A stretch of DNA of 64,000 bases. It comes from an uncultured Pelagibacteraceae bacterium. Lineage in GTDB: Bacteria > Pseudomonadota > Alphaproteobacteria > Pelagibacterales > Pelagibacteraceae. The stretch is from contig CACHPE010000002.1 in the NCBI GenBank assembly GCA_902581605.1, positions 1 to 64,000 on the forward strand. Direction: 5' to 3'. Position numbers and translations under genes: made by a program. Below, in pieces: positions 3,671 to 34,633 of the stretch (within the stretch, counting starts at the first letter, position 1; every line of letters begins with the position of its first letter). Under the pieces are notes generated by a model. The model made no database searches, was not told where the DNA came from, and worked only from the letters and a program-made list of their open reading frames with translations.

Positions 3671-4666
3671 TCAGATATTTCTTTCAATTAAAGACTTTAA
3701 TAAAATGATATGATCATTGTTATCATTTAGACATGGGACCATATCGAAATTTTCTCCTCCTGAATTTAAAAAACTTTCTTTAGCTTGTATTTGTATTTCC
3801 TCTAAAGTCTCTACACAATCAGATGCAAACCCTGGACAGATTGTAAGAACATTTTTAACGCCCTCTTTGGGAAGGCTTTCTAAAGTTTTATCCGTATATG
3901 GTTGCAGCCATTGTTGTGGGCCAAATCTTGATTGGAATGTGGTTTTAATTTTAATTGAACTAAATTTTTCTGAAATCAGTCTTGTCGTTTTATGACAATA
4001 ACAATGATAGGGATCGCCTTTATCAAAATATTTTTTTGGTATCCCGTGATAAGAGGCTATAATTAAATCTGGTTTCCAGCTTATATCATTTATTTTTTTA
4101 TTAATCGAATTAACAAGTGCATCAATGTAAAGTGAATCAGATTCATAATGAGGAATTATTTTTAAAGACGGTTGCCATCTCATTTTCATTAAAGTTCTGT
4201 ATACCTCGTCACAAACTGTAGCAGTTGTGGCTGCTGCATATTGTGGATAAAGAGGAAGTATTACTAGGTTTTCACAGCCCATTTGATGCAATTTATAAAT
4301 CTTGCTCTTAATGCTGGGATTTCCATACCTCATTGCAAAGTCTATAATAATATTTTCTTTTGATAATAAATTTGAAATTTTCTCACTTTGCTTTCTTGTA
4401 TAATAAAGAAGTGGAGAAATATTTTCTTCTTTCATCCAAATTTCCTTATAAGCTTTAGCAGTTTTAGAAGGTCTAAAATTTAAAATAAACAAATTTAAAA
4501 TTATTTGCCAAACTATTGGATTTACCTCGATAACTCTTCTATCAGAGAGAAACTCTTTTAAATATTTTCTTATATCAAACCAATTAGTGGAATCAGGTGT
4601 ACCAAGATTGATTATGAGTACACCTGTTTTGCCATATTTTATTTGCGGGTGGTTTTTTTCAATCAT
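3671..4666 (-). CDS. hemH: ferrochelatase
   Basis: GVLIINLGTPDS, FAMRYGNP, LPLYPQYAAATTATV, SYHGIPKKYFDKGDPYHCYC motifs. Confidence 0.97.
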   Translation of the reverse strand: MIEKNHPQIKYGKTGVLIINLGTPDSTNWFDIRKYLKEFLSDRRVIEVNPIVWQIILNLFILNFRPSKTAKAYKEIWMKEENISPLLYYTRKQSEKISNLLSKENIIIDFAMRYGNPSIKSKIYKLHQMGCENLVILPLYPQYAAATTATVCDEVYRTLMKMRWQPSLKIIPHYESDSLYIDALVNSINKKINDISWKPDLIIASYHGIPKKYFDKGDPYHCYCHKTTRLISEKFSSIKIKTTFQSRFGPQQWLQPYTDKTLESLPKEGVKNVLTICPGFASDCVETLEEIQIQAKESFLNSGGENFDMVPCLNDNNDHIILLKSLIERNI

Positions 4667-5667
4667 TTAAAATCTTTTACAATTTTAATTAAGTTTTCAA
4701 CCATTTCTGGATTTGTTTCGGGCAGAATACCATGACCAAGATTAAATATATATGGATGATCTCGGAAAATTTCTAAATATTTAGAGGCCTCTTTTTTTAA
4801 TTTTTCTTTATCTGTTAATAAAATTTTTGGGTCTAAACCACCTTGAATAGGTATTTTTATATCTCTAAGTATTTTCTTTGGGTCAACATTATAATCGATA
4901 CTAACTGCATCAGGTTTAACAATATCACAAAATTCCTTGTAATTTTTTATTTCTCTAGGAAAACATATCACTGGTACTTTTAAGGATTTTACATAATTAA
5001 CTAAATTTAGAGTTGGCGAATAAACATAATTTGGTAAATCTTTTTCTTCTAATAGGCCTGCCCAACTATCAAATATTTGAATTATGTTTGCACCGTTATC
5101 AATTTGGTTCTTAATGTGCACTTTTAAAAATTTTTCTATAATCAATAGAATTCTATTTATCAAAAATTCATCTTTGAAAAAATCTTCTTTCAATTTTCTT
5201 TTAGGAGATTGTTGATTAATCATATAAACTAATAATGTCCAAGGAGCACCAACAAAGCCGATAGTATTTTTGTTATTTAAACTAGTGTCTGAGCTAACTT
5301 TTTTTATTGCCCTATATACACGATGTATTTTTTCGACAAAGTCGATTTCATCAATCTTAGCGATTTCTTTTAGATCTAGTTCACCTAACTTTGGTCCAAA
5401 ATTTTTTTCAAATTCAACTTTTTGACCTAATCCATAAGGAAGTATTAATATGTCAGAAAATATAATTGCAGCATCTAGATCAAATCTTCTTAAGGGTTGT
5501 AGGGTTATTTCTGAAGATAAATCATCATTTAAACAAAGATTAATAAAGTTGGGGTTGTTTTTTCTAATTTCTCTAAATTCTGGTAGATATCTTCCTGCTT
5601 GTCTCATAACCCATATAGGATTAAAGGAAGTATCTTTGTTAGTAATTATTTTGTTTAAAGGTTTCAT
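4663..5667 (-). CDS. hemE: uroporphyrinogen decarboxylase
   Basis: PIWVMRQAGRYLPEFRE, FVGAPWTLLVYM, FDSWAGLL, NLGHGILPETNPEMV motifs. Confidence 0.97.
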   Translation of the reverse strand: MKPLNKIITNKDTSFNPIWVMRQAGRYLPEFREIRKNNPNFINLCLNDDLSSEITLQPLRRFDLDAAIIFSDILILPYGLGQKVEFEKNFGPKLGELDLKEIAKIDEIDFVEKIHRVYRAIKKVSSDTSLNNKNTIGFVGAPWTLLVYMINQQSPKRKLKEDFFKDEFLINRILLIIEKFLKVHIKNQIDNGANIIQIFDSWAGLLEEKDLPNYVYSPTLNLVNYVKSLKVPVICFPREIKNYKEFCDIVKPDAVSIDYNVDPKKILRDIKIPIQGGLDPKILLTDKEKLKKEASKYLEIFRDHPYIFNLGHGILPETNPEMVENLIKIVKDFK

Positions 5668-5933
5668 AAATAAATATTATTAATTATTGTAGTTGTAATA
5701 TATCTTGTGAATAAAGGTGATTACTTTTTATAAACATTATATTCACAGTTTACCAACATCTTATGTAGTTAAAATTGTTTAAAATGAAGCTTTTTTATAA
5801 TATCAATTTTTGTGGATTGTTTTGTCCTATTTATTATTAATGTTAATAAATAACAGTTTTTACAAGGTAAATTTATTAAATTTTAAATTGTGTAATTTAA
5901 TTAAAATAATACAAATTTATTAACAATTTATTC
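5668..5933. other. candidate chromosomal replication origin (oriC)
   Basis: Longest protein-free gap in the left third; divergent hemE | ppsR-maf-aroE-coaE-dnaQ arrangement; DnaA-box-like TGTGAATAA (5706-5714), ATATTCACA (5739-5747), TGTGGATTG (5811-5819); very AT-rich right half with an 11-bp direct repeat AAATTTATTAA (5869-5879, 5913-5923). No biochemical or skew evidence. Confidence 0.55.
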
Positions 5934-6761
5934 ATGAGCAATACATATCAAATATATTTAATTTCCGATTCAACTGGTGAAACTTTAGATAGAATATTTT
6001 TAGCGCTTAAGGCGCAATTTTTAAATATAGAATACAAAGTTCATTCTTATTCTTTTACGAGAACAGAAAATCAAATTCTAAAAATTTTAGAGGATGCAAA
6101 AAAAAATGAAAATTCTATAATCTTATATACAATCGTGGACAACAGCTTAGCCAAATATCTTGCGAATGTAAGTGAGGAGAAAAATATTCCTTGTTTTGGT
6201 GTTTTAGGAAATTTAATTTTAAATTTTTCAAAAATATTAAATCAAAAAGCAACTCATGAGCCAAGTGGTCAACATATATTGAATGAAGAGTATTATGATA
6301 GAATTGAAGCAATCCAATTTACAATGAATCATGATGATGGAAATTTAATAAACGAAGTATACAAATCAGATATTATTCTTGTAGGCGTAAGTAGAACGAG
6401 CAAAACACCAACATCTATTTATTTGGCCAACAAAGGGTTTAAAACATCAAACATTCCGCTAGTAAATGAAAACTCTTTGCCAGAGTCCCTTAAAAAAAAT
6501 CCCCAAATGACATGCGTTGTAGGACTAAGTACAGAGCCAGAAAGACTCGCTGATTTGAGAAAAAATAGGATGAATTCTTTAAAAGAGACAGAAAATATTG
6601 AATATACTAATTTAGAAAATATTAAAAGAGAGGTTCTTGAGGCAAAAAAAACATTTCAAAAATATAAATGGCCTCTTATAGATGTAACGAGAAAGTCAGT
6701 TGAAGAGACAGCGGCTTCTATAATTAAAATTCACGAAATATATTTAAACAATGTTAAATAA
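5934..6761 (+). CDS. ppsR: pyruvate, phosphate dikinase / PEP synthase regulatory protein (DUF299 kinase/pyrophosphorylase)
   Basis: YLISDSTGETLDRI, VGVSRTSKTPTSIYLANKG motifs. Confidence 0.93.
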   Translation: MSNTYQIYLISDSTGETLDRIFLALKAQFLNIEYKVHSYSFTRTENQILKILEDAKKNENSIILYTIVDNSLAKYLANVSEEKNIPCFGVLGNLILNFSKILNQKATHEPSGQHILNEEYYDRIEAIQFTMNHDDGNLINEVYKSDIILVGVSRTSKTPTSIYLANKGFKTSNIPLVNENSLPESLKKNPQMTCVVGLSTEPERLADLRKNRMNSLKETENIEYTNLENIKREVLEAKKTFQKYKWPLIDVTRKSVEETAASIIKIHEIYLNNVK

Positions 6762-28595: not shown

Positions 28596-29255
28596 TTATT
28601 TTAATTTTAATAAATTAATATTTTTTTTTATATCTCCATCGTTACTTTTGAAAACTGTAGTACCAGAAACAAGAATGTTCGCACCAGCATCAATTGCACT
28701 TTTACAGTTATCAAAATTGATTCCACCATCAATTTCTATGTCATAATCTAACTTTTTTTGTTCTCTTATTTTTTTTAATTCTTTAATTTTATCTAAAACA
28801 TTGGGCATAAATTTTTGCCCTCCGAATCCAGGATTTACACTCATAATTAAAACTAAATCTATTTGATCTAATAAATCTAAAACTAAATCAATTTTAGTTT
28901 CAGGATTAAGTGAAACTCCAACTTTTTTATTTTTTTCTTTTATTTTTTTAATTGAATCTTCTAAATTATCAGTTGCTTCAGGATGAATAGTAATTATATC
29001 TGCTCCAGCTTCAGCATAAGCGTCTATATATTTATGAACTGGTGATATCATTAAGTGAACATCAAATTTTAATGAGCAATGTTTTCGAAGAGCTTTAATT
29101 ACAGGTGGTCCTATAGTTAAATTAGGAACAAAATGACCATCCATGACATCCACATGAATCATATCAGCTCCCCCTTCTTCGAGTCTTTTAATTTCAGAAC
29201 CTAATTGACTAAAGTCAGCTGATAAAATTGATGGTGAAATTTGTATATTTTTCAT
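28596..29255 (-). CDS. rpe: ribulose-phosphate 3-epimerase
   Basis: ISPSILSADFSQLG, HVDVMDGHFVPNLTIGPPV, MSVNPGFGGQKF. Confidence 0.98.
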   Translation of the reverse strand: MKNIQISPSILSADFSQLGSEIKRLEEGGADMIHVDVMDGHFVPNLTIGPPVIKALRKHCSLKFDVHLMISPVHKYIDAYAEAGADIITIHPEATDNLEDSIKKIKEKNKKVGVSLNPETKIDLVLDLLDQIDLVLIMSVNPGFGGQKFMPNVLDKIKELKKIREQKKLDYDIEIDGGINFDNCKSAIDAGANILVSGTTVFKSNDGDIKKNINLLKLK

Positions 29256-29289
29256 TGATTACTAGATTAACTAGTATCAATTTTAAAAA

Positions 29290-29640
29290 TTAAAATGAAT
29301 TAAAAAATTGATAAATTTGTCTAGAAATTTCACTTTCCAAAGGAAATGATAACATTCCCATCACCGAATATCCTAAGATCCAAGGCATCAGATAAAATCT
29401 AATCATGTAGAAAAACCAAGCAACATACAAGGGCACCAATGGCCCAATGATAAATGAGGGTGTTATTGGTTTAAATAATTTTATTAGAGGATTGGTGTAT
29501 TTTACAAATACTCTCATGAAAAAGAATTGTGAGTCTTCTTTTTGAAAAATGTTCATCGCTACTCTTCCAATAAGAGTCCACATGATGATCCCGAGCAAAT
29601 AATCAATAAAATATATTAAAGGATGAAAATTCGCTGACAT
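29290..29640 (-). CDS. small integral membrane protein, YggT-like hypothetical
   Basis: 116 aa with several hydrophobic segments (YFIDYLLGIIMWTLIGRVAMNIF; NPLIKLFKPITPSFI). Confidence 0.6.
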   Translation of the reverse strand: MSANFHPLIYFIDYLLGIIMWTLIGRVAMNIFQKEDSQFFFMRVFVKYTNPLIKLFKPITPSFIIGPLVPLYVAWFFYMIRFYLMPWILGYSVMGMLSFPLESEISRQIYQFFNSF

Positions 29641-29670
29641 TCAAAATTTATATTGGAAAATTTATTGAAA

Positions 29671-29700
29671 TAAAAGGGGCGAAATTAATCGCCCCTTTTA
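29671..29700 (-). terminator. Rho-independent terminator downstream of symporter operon
   Basis: Perfect 12-bp inverted repeat TAAAAGGGGCGA-AATTAA-TCGCCCCTTTTA with T-rich flank on the minus strand, 10 nt after the stop of the 29710-31521 CDS. Confidence 0.85.
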
Positions 29701-29709
29701 AAAGATTAT

Positions 29710-31521
29710 TTAGTGTGATTTACCAAGAATTGATTTACCACTCGGTACACGTACGTCATCAACCATTTTTTGAGTAGCTTTATCTGGTTCTGCAGTCATT
29801 AAACTAACTACTACCATTAAAACTAAACTAACAGCTGATCCGAAGATACCAAATGTTAACTGTGTAATTCCTAGGAAACCACTTCCACCAGTTCGTACCC
29901 AAACTAAGTACCACGCACCGGCGATTAGACCACCTAGCATACCAGCAATCGCACCTTGTCTATTAGCTCTCTTCCACCATACACCAAGCACAAGTGGGAA
30001 GAACAATCCAGACATCGCAAAATCAAAAGCCCAGATAACCGAACCTAAGATTCCTTGTATCTCCATTGCTGCAATAGTTGCTCCAGCAAAACCAATTATT
30101 ACAAGTAATACCCTTGCAACAAGTAGTCGTTTTGCAGTTTCCGCTTTTGGATCAATGATCTTATAGTAAACATCATGTGATATAGCGTTTGCAATCGCTA
30201 GAATCAAACCATCGGCAGTAGACATGGCAGCTGCCATACCCCCTGCAGCAACTAGACCTGAAATTACATAAGGTAATCCAGCTATCTCTGGTGTTGCTAA
30301 TACAACGGCTTTACCACCCATGAAGAACTCATTTAATTCGAGAGTTCCATTTCCGTTAAAGTCGCTGATAAACATTAGGTTTGCTTGGTTCCAGTTTTGG
30401 TACCAGTCTATTGCTTCCACTTCTGCAAATGTCTTACCGATAATACCTGTTGGTAAATTCGGGTCGATCAATGATAACTTAGATAAAGTAGCTAACATTG
30501 GAGCAGAAGAATAAAGTAGGAAGATAAAGAATAATGACCAACCTACTGATTTTCTAGCTGCTTTTACACTTGGAGTAGTAAAGTATCTCATCATCACGTG
30601 CGGTAATGATGCTGTTCCCATCATCATCGCTAATGCTAATGAAATAAATGCCCAAGGTGTAGCGTTCACTGCAGAGTGAGCTTTAGTTATTCCTGCTAAG
30701 CCTTTAGGTACTGATTTTAGATCAGCAGCTGCGTTTTTAACAAAACCAAACTGTTGTTCTAATTCACCAATTCTAGCTACCTCGTCAGCTAACATAAAGT
30801 GAGGGAAGAAACCCGCACCCATTTTGTTACTGATCCAGAATACTGGAAGTAGGTAAGCTATAATCAGTACGATATATTGTGCAACCTGTGTCCAAGTTAC
30901 CCCTCTCATACCACCTAACATTGAACATAATAAAATACTTATTAGTCCAACATAAACTGCGTATTGGAATGGGATATCAAGTGCAACAGATGCAATAGTA
31001 CCTGTAGCGTTAATTTGTGCAGTCACATACGTAAATGAAGCAACAGTTAAAACTACAACTGCGCTAAATCTAGCTAAATTACCACCGTATCTAGTACCTA
31101 TAAAATCTGGAACTGTATAACAGCCAAATTTTCTTAAGTATGGTGCTAATAAAGATGCAACAAGCACGTAACCACCAGTCCAACCTACAAGTAGAGCCAT
31201 ATAGCCGTAACCTTTAAAGTAAATACCACCCGCCATTGCAACGAATGAAGCACCAGACATCCAGTCTGCTGCAGTCGCCATTCCGTTGAAGACTGTTGGT
31301 ACTTGCCTTCCAGCTACGTAATATGCATCTGCTTGGGCTGTTCTTGATAGCCAACCGATTAATGCATAGATGAATACAGTAAAAGCAACGAAAGCGATAC
31401 CAATCGCTTTAGCTGTCATACCCATCTGTTCAGCAATTGCCATAATGATTATGAAACCTATAAATCCTCCGGTATAGATCCCGTAAACTTTAGGCAAATT
31501 ATCTATGAAATTACCTTTCAT
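29710..31521 (-). CDS. sodium:solute symporter (acetate/VC_2705-type)
   Basis: 603 aa polytopic; YYVAGRQVPTVFNGMATAADWMSGASFVAMAGGIYF; GLVAAGGMAAAMSTADGLILAIANAISHDVYY; partnered with DUF4212. Confidence 0.9.
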   Translation of the reverse strand: MKGNFIDNLPKVYGIYTGGFIGFIIIMAIAEQMGMTAKAIGIAFVAFTVFIYALIGWLSRTAQADAYYVAGRQVPTVFNGMATAADWMSGASFVAMAGGIYFKGYGYMALLVGWTGGYVLVASLLAPYLRKFGCYTVPDFIGTRYGGNLARFSAVVVLTVASFTYVTAQINATGTIASVALDIPFQYAVYVGLISILLCSMLGGMRGVTWTQVAQYIVLIIAYLLPVFWISNKMGAGFFPHFMLADEVARIGELEQQFGFVKNAAADLKSVPKGLAGITKAHSAVNATPWAFISLALAMMMGTASLPHVMMRYFTTPSVKAARKSVGWSLFFIFLLYSSAPMLATLSKLSLIDPNLPTGIIGKTFAEVEAIDWYQNWNQANLMFISDFNGNGTLELNEFFMGGKAVVLATPEIAGLPYVISGLVAAGGMAAAMSTADGLILAIANAISHDVYYKIIDPKAETAKRLLVARVLLVIIGFAGATIAAMEIQGILGSVIWAFDFAMSGLFFPLVLGVWWKRANRQGAIAGMLGGLIAGAWYLVWVRTGGSGFLGITQLTFGIFGSAVSLVLMVVVSLMTAEPDKATQKMVDDVRVPSGKSILGKSH

Positions 31522-31781
31522 TATTCGTCCTCTCTTTCGCTAAAGCCGAACTCTTCATCGATTTTTTCTTGTCTATTCGCAAACCAGAAAATCAAGATTA
31601 CGAATGCACCAAGAGATCCCTGACATGTAAACCAGTATGTCCATGGATAACCGAAAGGTCCTGTGACCTCGTTCATTTCAGCTCCAAAGAGAAAGATGCC
31701 AATTGAGAAAACAAACCAGATTGCTAGTGTTATAAATAACAATCCCCTGGTTTTTTCCCAGTGTTTTTGTTGATTTGACAT
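31521..31781 (-). CDS. DUF4212 (sodium/substrate symporter small subunit)
   Basis: 86 aa; HWEKTRGLLFITLAIWFVFSIGIFLF, GFPYPWTYWFTCQGSL-type pattern; abuts the symporter. Confidence 0.9.
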   Translation of the reverse strand: MSNQQKHWEKTRGLLFITLAIWFVFSIGIFLFGAEMNEVTGPFGYPWTYWFTCQGSLGAFVILIFWFANRQEKIDEEFGFSEREDE

Positions 31782-31916
31782 TTATACCTCTCTATTTAGT
31801 TATAACTGATTGAAACCATAACCATTATGAAGGTTTTGAAAAGACCTAAAATTCACCATATTAGGTACTTATTTACTTACTTTTTTAAGATATAATTGGC
31901 GCACATACAAATTTAC

Positions 31917-32540
31917 ATGGGAAAATACAAATTAACTTGGAGAGACATAAAATTTGAGGATTTCAAAACATATTTATTCGCCATGTTTAAGGCGTTTATT
32001 CCAAAGAAAAAAATAAAAACTTTAGACGAATTAGAACAATTTATTCAAACTAAATCTGCCTGGGCTACTCAAGTTACTTTATATAATTATCTAAAAACTA
32101 GAATGGGAACAAGATATGTTCTTCATTTTGATAATGATGAATTTATGTCATCAGTAAATCTTGCTAAATGGAATATTTATTCAGTTGCATTACAAGATTT
32201 AACTTTTTTTACATTTTCATATTTAAAAGTTAATTTTAATTATCAGGATATTCATAAAGCAAACGAAATTTTCAATAAAATTTTAGATGACGAAATTTCT
32301 AATAAGATGCCGTTAGATATTATTGATGAAGCTAGGAAAAGTTTTGATGAACGATTAAACAAAATAAATTGGGATGTTTATTATCAAGACTTACCTTTTA
32401 ATCCTAGTGCACTCTCTTTATATAAATGGGCTCCAATTGCAGAGGAATTAAAAACTTTAGATCGAAAGATTGTTTTAAATTCGATGATTTTAAAATGGGA
32501 TGTTGTTAAACAAGAATTTAAAGATTTAATACAGTTTTAA
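31917..32540 (+). CDS. hypothetical protein
   Basis: ATG at 31917 ([19 protein letters not shown]); the track start at 31896 is a TTG. No family recognised. Confidence 0.65.
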
Positions 32541-34633
32541 ATATTTTTTCTATTTTCAACCAAACTATCAACAACACTTGGATCTGCTAGAGTAGTTGTG
32601 TCTCCTAATTCACCATGCTCATTAGCAGCAATCTTTCTTAGAATTCTTCTCATTATTTTTCCTGATCTTGTTTTAGGAAGACCTGGAGTAAAATGAATTA
32701 GATCTGGAGTTGCTAAAGGACCAATTTGTTTTCTAACCCAAAGTTTTAGATCTCTTTCTAGTTCACCAGTTTCGCTCTCTCCTGCATTTAAGGTTACATA
32801 GCAATACAAACCATTACCTTTAATATCATGGGGGTAACCAACTACAGCAGCTTCAGCTACTTTTGGATGAGCAACAAAAGCACTTTCAATTTCAGCTGTT
32901 CCAAGATTATGTCCTGAAACGATAATCACATCATCTACTCGACCAGTGATCCAGTAATATCCATCTTTATCTCTTCGACATCCATCTCCTGTGAAATATT
33001 TTCCGTTAAATTGAGAAAAGTATGTATCGATAAATCTTTGATGATCTCCATAAACAGTTCTCATTTGTCCAGGCCATGATTGAGCAATACATAATCTTCC
33101 TTCTCCAGCTCCTTTAATTTCTTTACCGTTTTTATCAACAAGGACTGGCTTAATTCCATAGAAAGGTTTTGTTGCAGATCCAGGTTTAAGAGGAATAGCA
33201 CCTGTCTGAGGAGCAATCATTATACCTCCAGTTTCCGTTTGCCACCATGTGTCTACAATTGGGCATTTAGAATTACCTACAGTTTTATAATACCACATCC
33301 AAGCTTCTGGATTTATTGGTTCTCCCACTGTTCCTAAAAGTTTAAGTGATTTTCTAGATGTTTTCTTAACAGGTTTATCTCCCTCACGCATTAAAGCTCT
33401 GATTGCAGTTGGTGCTGTATAGAAAGTATTTACTTTATATTTATCAACTATTTGCCACCACCTAGAACTATCGGGATAATTTGGAATTCCCTCAAACATT
33501 ATGGTGGTTGCACCATTCGAAAGTGGTCCATAAATTATGTAACTATGTCCAGTTACCCAGCCAATATCAGCAGTACACCAATAAATATCTTTTGGTTTGT
33601 AGTTGAAAATATATTGATGTGTCATTGATGCATAAACCATATAACCGCCAGTAGTATGAAGAACTCCTTTAGGTTTACCTGTTGAACCCGAAGTATATAA
33701 AATAAACAAAGGATCTTCAGCGTCCATTTCCTCAGGTTCACAATTATTTGGAACGTCTTTAATTAAATCATGAAACCAAACATCTCTATTCTGATCCCAG
33801 TTTATGTAATTACCTGTTCGTTTTACAACAATACATTTCTTAACATTTGGACAACTCATTAAAGCTTCATCGACTGTATATTTCAATGGAATAGTTTTTC
33901 CTCCACGCACTCCTTCATCTGCAGTAATTATGTATTCAGACTCGCAATCATTCACTCTTCCCGAAATAGAATCTGCTGAAAAACCTCCAAATATAATCGA
34001 ATGAACTGCACCAATTCTTACACAAGCTAACATCAAAATTGCTAACTCTGGTATCATTGTTAAATAAATTGTTACGCGATCCCCTTTTTTAATTCCTAAT
34101 TTTTTTAAACCATTTGCTGCTTTAGAAACTTTTTGGTGAAGTTGTTTATAAGAAATTTTTTGACTATCTTTTGGATCATCTCCTACCCAAATAATAGCTG
34201 TTTTATCTTTTTTATCTTTTAGATGTCGATCAATACAATTCGCTGAAGCATTTAAAGTGCCATCTTCAAACCATTTAATTTTGACTTCTTTAGTACTGTA
34301 TTTTACATCTTTAATTTTTTTATAAGGTTTGATCCAGGTAATTCTTTTTCCTTCTTTTCTCCAAAATTCATCATTACTCTTTATAGATTGAGAATATTTT
34401 TGTTGATATTTACTTTTATTTGCTAAGCTACTTTTAACCCATTCTGGTTTTGTTTTAATAACCACTTCAGGAGGTGTATTTTCGTTTTCTTTTTTTGCTT
34501 TAATTTTTTTCTTTATTTTTTTTGAGGATTTTTTTCTAACTTTAGATCTTTTCTTTACCTTTTTTGAAGTTTTTTTTCTAACTTTAGACTTCTTTTTTCT
34601 TACCTTGCTTTTCTTTTTCTTTTTTTTTGGCAT
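32537..34633 (-). CDS. acs: acetyl-CoA synthetase with Lys-rich N-terminal extension
   Basis: Acs core ([74 protein letters not shown]) preceded by ~50 aa of K/R/S repeats. Confidence 0.96.

Follow-up and report, generated by a model that had tools for sequence, protein, structure and literature searches.

A conserved DnaA-box module between hemE and ppsR is the probable chromosomal replication origin of a Pelagibacteraceae (SAR11) genome

The 266-bp non-coding gap between hemE and ppsR (positions 5668-5933) is very probably the chromosomal replication origin (oriC) of this Pelagibacteraceae (SAR11) genome. A sequence-only reading had proposed as much, and the assignment is supported by the position and flanks of the gap, by the conservation, spacing and periodicity of its elements, by GC-skew change points in complete relatives and by the nearness of parS and parB. 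The site was already to be expected from alphaproteobacterial knowledge and is not categorically new; what is new is the base-level architecture and its conservation across the family. Published work has used GC skew or coverage to locate the SAR11 origin (PMC9516812, PMC9589681). We found no experimental SAR11 origin map in the open-access papers searched; origin databases may list predictions. Few cells in the ocean are as abundant as SAR11, whose in situ growth is estimated using the origin/terminus copy-number ratio. A base-level origin map provides a fixed anchor for such estimates, which dnaA, located 61-72 kb from the gap in seven complete genomes, does not. The locus also offers a case of an alphaproteobacterial origin lacking CtrA that can be put to the test.

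Results

Genomic context and chromosome position

The window, meaning the whole stretch of DNA analysed, comprises the first 64 kb of contig C2 of a draft genome (36 contigs, 82% complete). Both the gap and every motif listed in it by the sequence-only reading were found where that reading had placed them. The attribution of the window to a SAR11-type genome is borne out by the nearest named PpsR relatives, which are from uncultured Pelagibacteraceae and show up to 100% identity. Pfam assigns the flanking products to URO-D and Kinase-PPPase (Table 1), and the latter family is what we take to be COG1806/DUF299. The gap has a G+C content of 16% and probably also holds the hemE and ppsR promoters. 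In Caulobacter crescentus, experimental mapping placed the origin (Cori) between hemE and COG1806, the location also predicted for Rickettsia origins (PMC1914354). An origin beside hemE had been noted for both organisms in the earlier reading, and the same flanks are found here.

Table 1 Features of the hemE-ppsR gap and its flanks (window positions).
Feature	Position	Strand	Basis
hemE, uroporphyrinogen decarboxylase, left flank	4663-5667	-	Pfam PF01208 (URO-D); start at 5667
oriC region (very probable), gap between divergent hemE and ppsR	5668-5933	.	kept length; skew switch in four complete relatives
Probable unwinding element, DnaA-trio-like: TAT TAT TAA TTA TTG TAG TTG TAA TAT, T every 3 bp	5675-5701	+	register conservation, low stability
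box1, TGTGAATAA; DnaA box TTATTCACA on the minus strand	5706-5714	-	conservation 0.976; most conserved gap box in close relatives
Conserved element GGTGATTA (family GnTnATTA), between box1 and box array	5716-5723	+	conservation 0.923
box2, TTATAAACA, first of three at 11-bp pitch	5728-5736	+	conservation 0.948; 1 mismatch
box3, ATATTCACA, second of the 11-bp-pitch array	5739-5747	+	conservation 0.898
box4, TTACCAACA, last of the array, degenerate in the window (most relatives: TTATTAACA)	5750-5758	+	conservation 0.865
TGTGGATTG, possible weak DnaA box kept in close relatives	5811-5819	-	conservation 0.872
box5, TTATTAACA on the minus strand (top TGTTAATAA)	5841-5849	-	conservation 0.963; 1 mismatch
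box6, TTATTAACA, adjoins ppsR and includes right copy of the AAATTTATTAA repeat	5917-5925	+	conservation 0.929; 1 mismatch
ppsR, PF03618 kinase/pyrophosphorylase (Kinase-PPPase), right flank	5934-6761	+	Pfam; start at 5934

Since the window belongs to a fragmented draft, skew was evaluated in four complete relatives from two genera (G012, G085, G086 and G061), bearing in mind that GC skew resolves tens of kb at best. The G012 chromosome (one contig, 1,343,202 bp) has a cumulative skew peak at 616 kb and a bottom plateau at 1.24-1.30 Mb, with the gap at 1.262 Mb; the raw minimum (1,290,841) is 29 kb from the gap. The gap position also fits the strand-corrected GC3 change point of 1.25-1.31 Mb. 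An origin adjacent to dnaA was rejected for this genome, as dnaA (1.199 Mb) lies 63 kb off and is disfavoured by the strand-corrected GC3 fit (delta chi2 8.8). A gene bootstrap and a TA3 skew fit gave no usable interval in G012. Sampled skew for G085, G086 and G061 (another genus), using twenty 20-kb tiles each, yielded wide intervals that include the gap. At a resolution of tens of kb, the gap therefore lies at the GC-skew switch (minimum) in complete relatives, and the change points cover it in all four, as the sequence-only reading had expected. Against this, cumulative skew within the window alone is lowest near 36 kb.

The nearness of parS and parB adds independent support for oriC. Only one parS-like site with two or fewer mismatches occurs in G012, 7.3 kb from the gap, and parB is found 9, 9 and 20 kb from the gap in G012, G085 and G063, respectively.

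An ordered array of DnaA boxes

The sequence-only reading had listed boxes at 5706, 5739 and 5811 and considered the set to be minimal. All three are located as it described, but four others (5728, 5750, 5841 and 5917) had been missed, and the gap actually contains six or more boxes in an ordered array, with three boxes spaced by exactly 11 bp coming after box1. In the family alignment, the TGTGGATTG site does not stand out. Across the family, the array boxes have the consensus TTATTMACA, in which A is more frequent than the canonical C at position six. The DnaA protein has the usual domains (Pfam) and its domain IV recognition residues look canonical, reading RDHTT in the recognition helix and VRPRQ; the relaxed boxes are thus not explained by an obviously altered DnaA. 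The GGTGATTA element next to box1 is kept over the family.

The clustering of DnaA boxes exceeds chance, as in a bacterial chromosomal oriC. One perfect TTATNCACA means little, given that the 64-kb window contains two against 4.0 expected. Allowing up to one mismatch, the gap holds five box matches, whereas dinucleotide shuffles give 0.95 (P ~0.002); no other 270-bp stretch of the window is as dense in boxes. Across the gaps of 56 relatives, 248 relaxed boxes were counted against 47.8 expected, with P<=0.05 in 53 gaps. In the G012 genome as a whole, the gap is the top non-coding box cluster and the second overall, the densest stretch (1,324,350) being mostly coding and lacking a perfect box. 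Another G012 cluster, at the raw skew minimum (1,290,795), overlies the starts of two coding genes and was rejected. Boxes within the gaps are spaced by 11 bp 40 times and by 22 bp 27 times; a search of the G012 genome for an 11- or 22-bp spacing peak found none.

Conservation across relatives

The gap is 261-289 bp long in 56 of 58 relatives, other genera included (PpsR identity down to 55%), and 266-284 bp long in 88 further loci. hemE was not found in the locus of the other two, G062 and G063 (loci L130 and L131, another genus), where a rho-like gene lies directly upstream and the box module still sits beside ppsR. Per-position conservation was derived from 91 close relatives (effective number 32): box columns are conserved at 0.930 versus 0.829 for the remaining columns, and no rotation of the box mask (265 in all) matched this. 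The boxes are thus kept across the gaps of related genomes, which the sequence-only reading had named as a check on its proposal. None of 18 genomes of a sister family of the order (f2, G089-G106) yielded a ppsR match; in that family the right origin flank has been lost or has diverged.

A putative unwinding element left of box1

AT-rich DNA of low predicted stability lies next to the boxes, as in a DnaA-dependent chromosomal oriC, and the probable site of unwinding is the stretch left of box1, approximately 5675-5701. The least stable 36 bp of the region are 5667-5702, with 5868-5903 close behind, and a spacer of only 4 nt (5702-5705) separates the element from box1. A conserved trinucleotide register adjoins box1 on this side. 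Over the family, T is present at -7, -10, -13, -16 and -19 relative to box1 in 100, 89, 93, 98 and 80% of cases, and all five Ts are found together in 42 of 56 genomes versus 0.74% of 1,745 background boxes. A one-base shift of the phase leaves all five Ts in only 0 and 4 genomes. The register steps are TA in most genomes. Coding was rejected as a source of the 3-bp register, since the hemE-box1 distance differs between relatives by non-multiples of three.

The sequence-only reading had placed unwinding in the right half of the gap, at an 11-bp direct repeat (AAATTTATTAA). The repeat does exist (5869-5879 and 5913-5923), but of its two copies only the right one is in a conserved stretch. As the left copy is poorly conserved (0.765 versus a mean of 0.850) and the right copy consists of the flank and core of box6, the repeat is mostly chance. 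It is rather unlikely, though worth keeping in mind, that melting begins in the right AT-rich half (5869-5923) or on both sides: 5868-5903 comes close to the left flank in instability and box6 is at its edge, whereas the left repeat copy is not well kept, no 3-bp register was noticed there, and in E. coli the unwinding element has the same geometry as proposed here, to the left of box R1. The conserved, least stable stretch on the hemE side of box1 is the better candidate.

The left half of E. coli oriC comprises, in order, the DUE, box R1 and a box array, with an IHF site between R1 and the array. The SAR11 gap is similar in having an AT-rich element, a TGTGNATAA box and then phased weaker boxes; unlike in E. 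coli, no GATC/SeqA cluster was noticed in the gap, and the flanking genes differ.

A second point of comparison is the basal unwinding system (BUS), which consists of a DnaA box plus DnaA-trios (PMC6669920, PMC8287927). To count as DnaA-trios, at least three NAN triplets must lie no more than 16 bp from a DnaA box, on the strand whose 5' end is distal (PMC8287927), and the '5'-tail' wording of the same study puts the trio strand on top here. As in the BUS, a conserved box adjoins AT-rich DNA with a 3-bp period, located on the side expected for trios; the conserved T fits the 5' base of 3'-GAT-5', and the TA steps are compatible with a DnaA-trio. Unlike in the BUS, the most conserved base of the SAR11 register is T rather than the central A, and the spacer is 4 nt versus the common 10-13. 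On the expected strand, the window has two NAN triplets in register, short of the three required. At least three such triplets occur in 64% of the family versus 60% of AT-rich background, and the strict criterion is non-discriminating in such AT-rich DNA. Judged from its sequence, 5675-5701 would work like a trio element, although we do not file it as one.

With unwinding left of box1, DnaA would bind box1 and the three boxes at 11-bp pitch, a pitch of one helical turn that would place these boxes on one face of the DNA. The DnaA oligomer could then reach left over the 4-nt spacer into the AT-rich, 3-bp-periodic element, which would melt first and take the helicase; both the start of melting and the strand held are inferred. 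Towards ppsR, a further cluster of DnaA may be anchored at boxes 5841 and 5917.

Relation to the Caulobacter origin

Like Cori, the SAR11 gap has divergent hemE and COG1806 (ppsR) flanks, DnaA boxes and AT-rich DNA, and dnaA is not adjacent. DnaA, CtrA and IHF sites are described as typical features (PMC1914354). Two IHF-site matches (12/13) occur in the gap, in very AT-rich DNA, and both overlie DnaA boxes. Unlike for Cori, CtrA is missing and its sites are not kept in the SAR11 gap; the gap is ~266 bp long, its boxes are mostly TTATTMACA with three at exact 11-bp pitch, and GANTC is nearly absent. We found no CtrA ortholog in 7 genomes (best match 35% identity) and no exact TTAA-N7-TTAA in the window, and a comparative study reports no ctrA ortholog in Pelagibacter (PMC2877005). 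Control by CtrA was therefore rejected, and the gap is not a CtrA-regulated Caulobacter-type origin.

The 11-bp pitch allows another reading of the array, in which a TTAA every 11 bp, equivalent to TTAA-N7-TTAA, is bound by a CtrA-like response regulator and not by DnaA. Exact sites of this form are present in 18 of 56 relatives and such sites exist in Cori (PMC1914354), but their lack in the window, the missing ortholog and the better fit of the units to the DnaA box make this very unlikely.

GANTC is methylated in Pelagibacter in a cell-cycle-like gradient (PMC9516812). The motif occurs once in 58 family gaps versus 8.2 expected (Markov model), a depletion of uncertain strength as the 58 gaps are related, and twice in 146 gaps overall. 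It is not depleted in G012 intergenic DNA in general (138 versus 151).

Taking DnaA as the binder of the array, we tentatively suggest that the alphaproteobacterial origin site may have been retained in SAR11, but that CtrA control was lost and the origin remade into a compact DnaA-only module. The module might, equally tentatively, be described as one strong box, a relaxed TTATTMACA array at 11-bp pitch and a divergent trio element with a conserved T. If true, the near absence of GANTC would also free the origin from direct CcrM control.

It is extremely improbable that the gap is only a divergent promoter region, with boxes that are DnaA-regulated or chance AT-rich sites and an origin elsewhere nearby, for although hemE and ppsR diverge from it, each needing a promoter there, and AT-rich gaps easily gain box-like sites, the family has a fixed box spacing, triplet register and length, the module of G062 and G063 persists with rho and not hemE on its left, skew, parS and parB all point to the gap, and G012 has no better intergenic box cluster.

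Neighbourhood of the origin

Further into the window, G+C rises to 0.33-0.38 at 29000-33000 compared with ~0.28 around it; Rfam found no rRNA in this stretch. An ORF at 16-1905, left of rho, encodes a TPR/O-GlcNAc-transferase-like protein where G012 has an mnmE-like gene, amounting to a rearrangement or insertion within 4 kb of the origin. The hemH products of the window (3671-4666) and of G012 (1,259,912-1,260,946) occupy the same position and look very different; replacement in place by another ferrochelatase type is possible.
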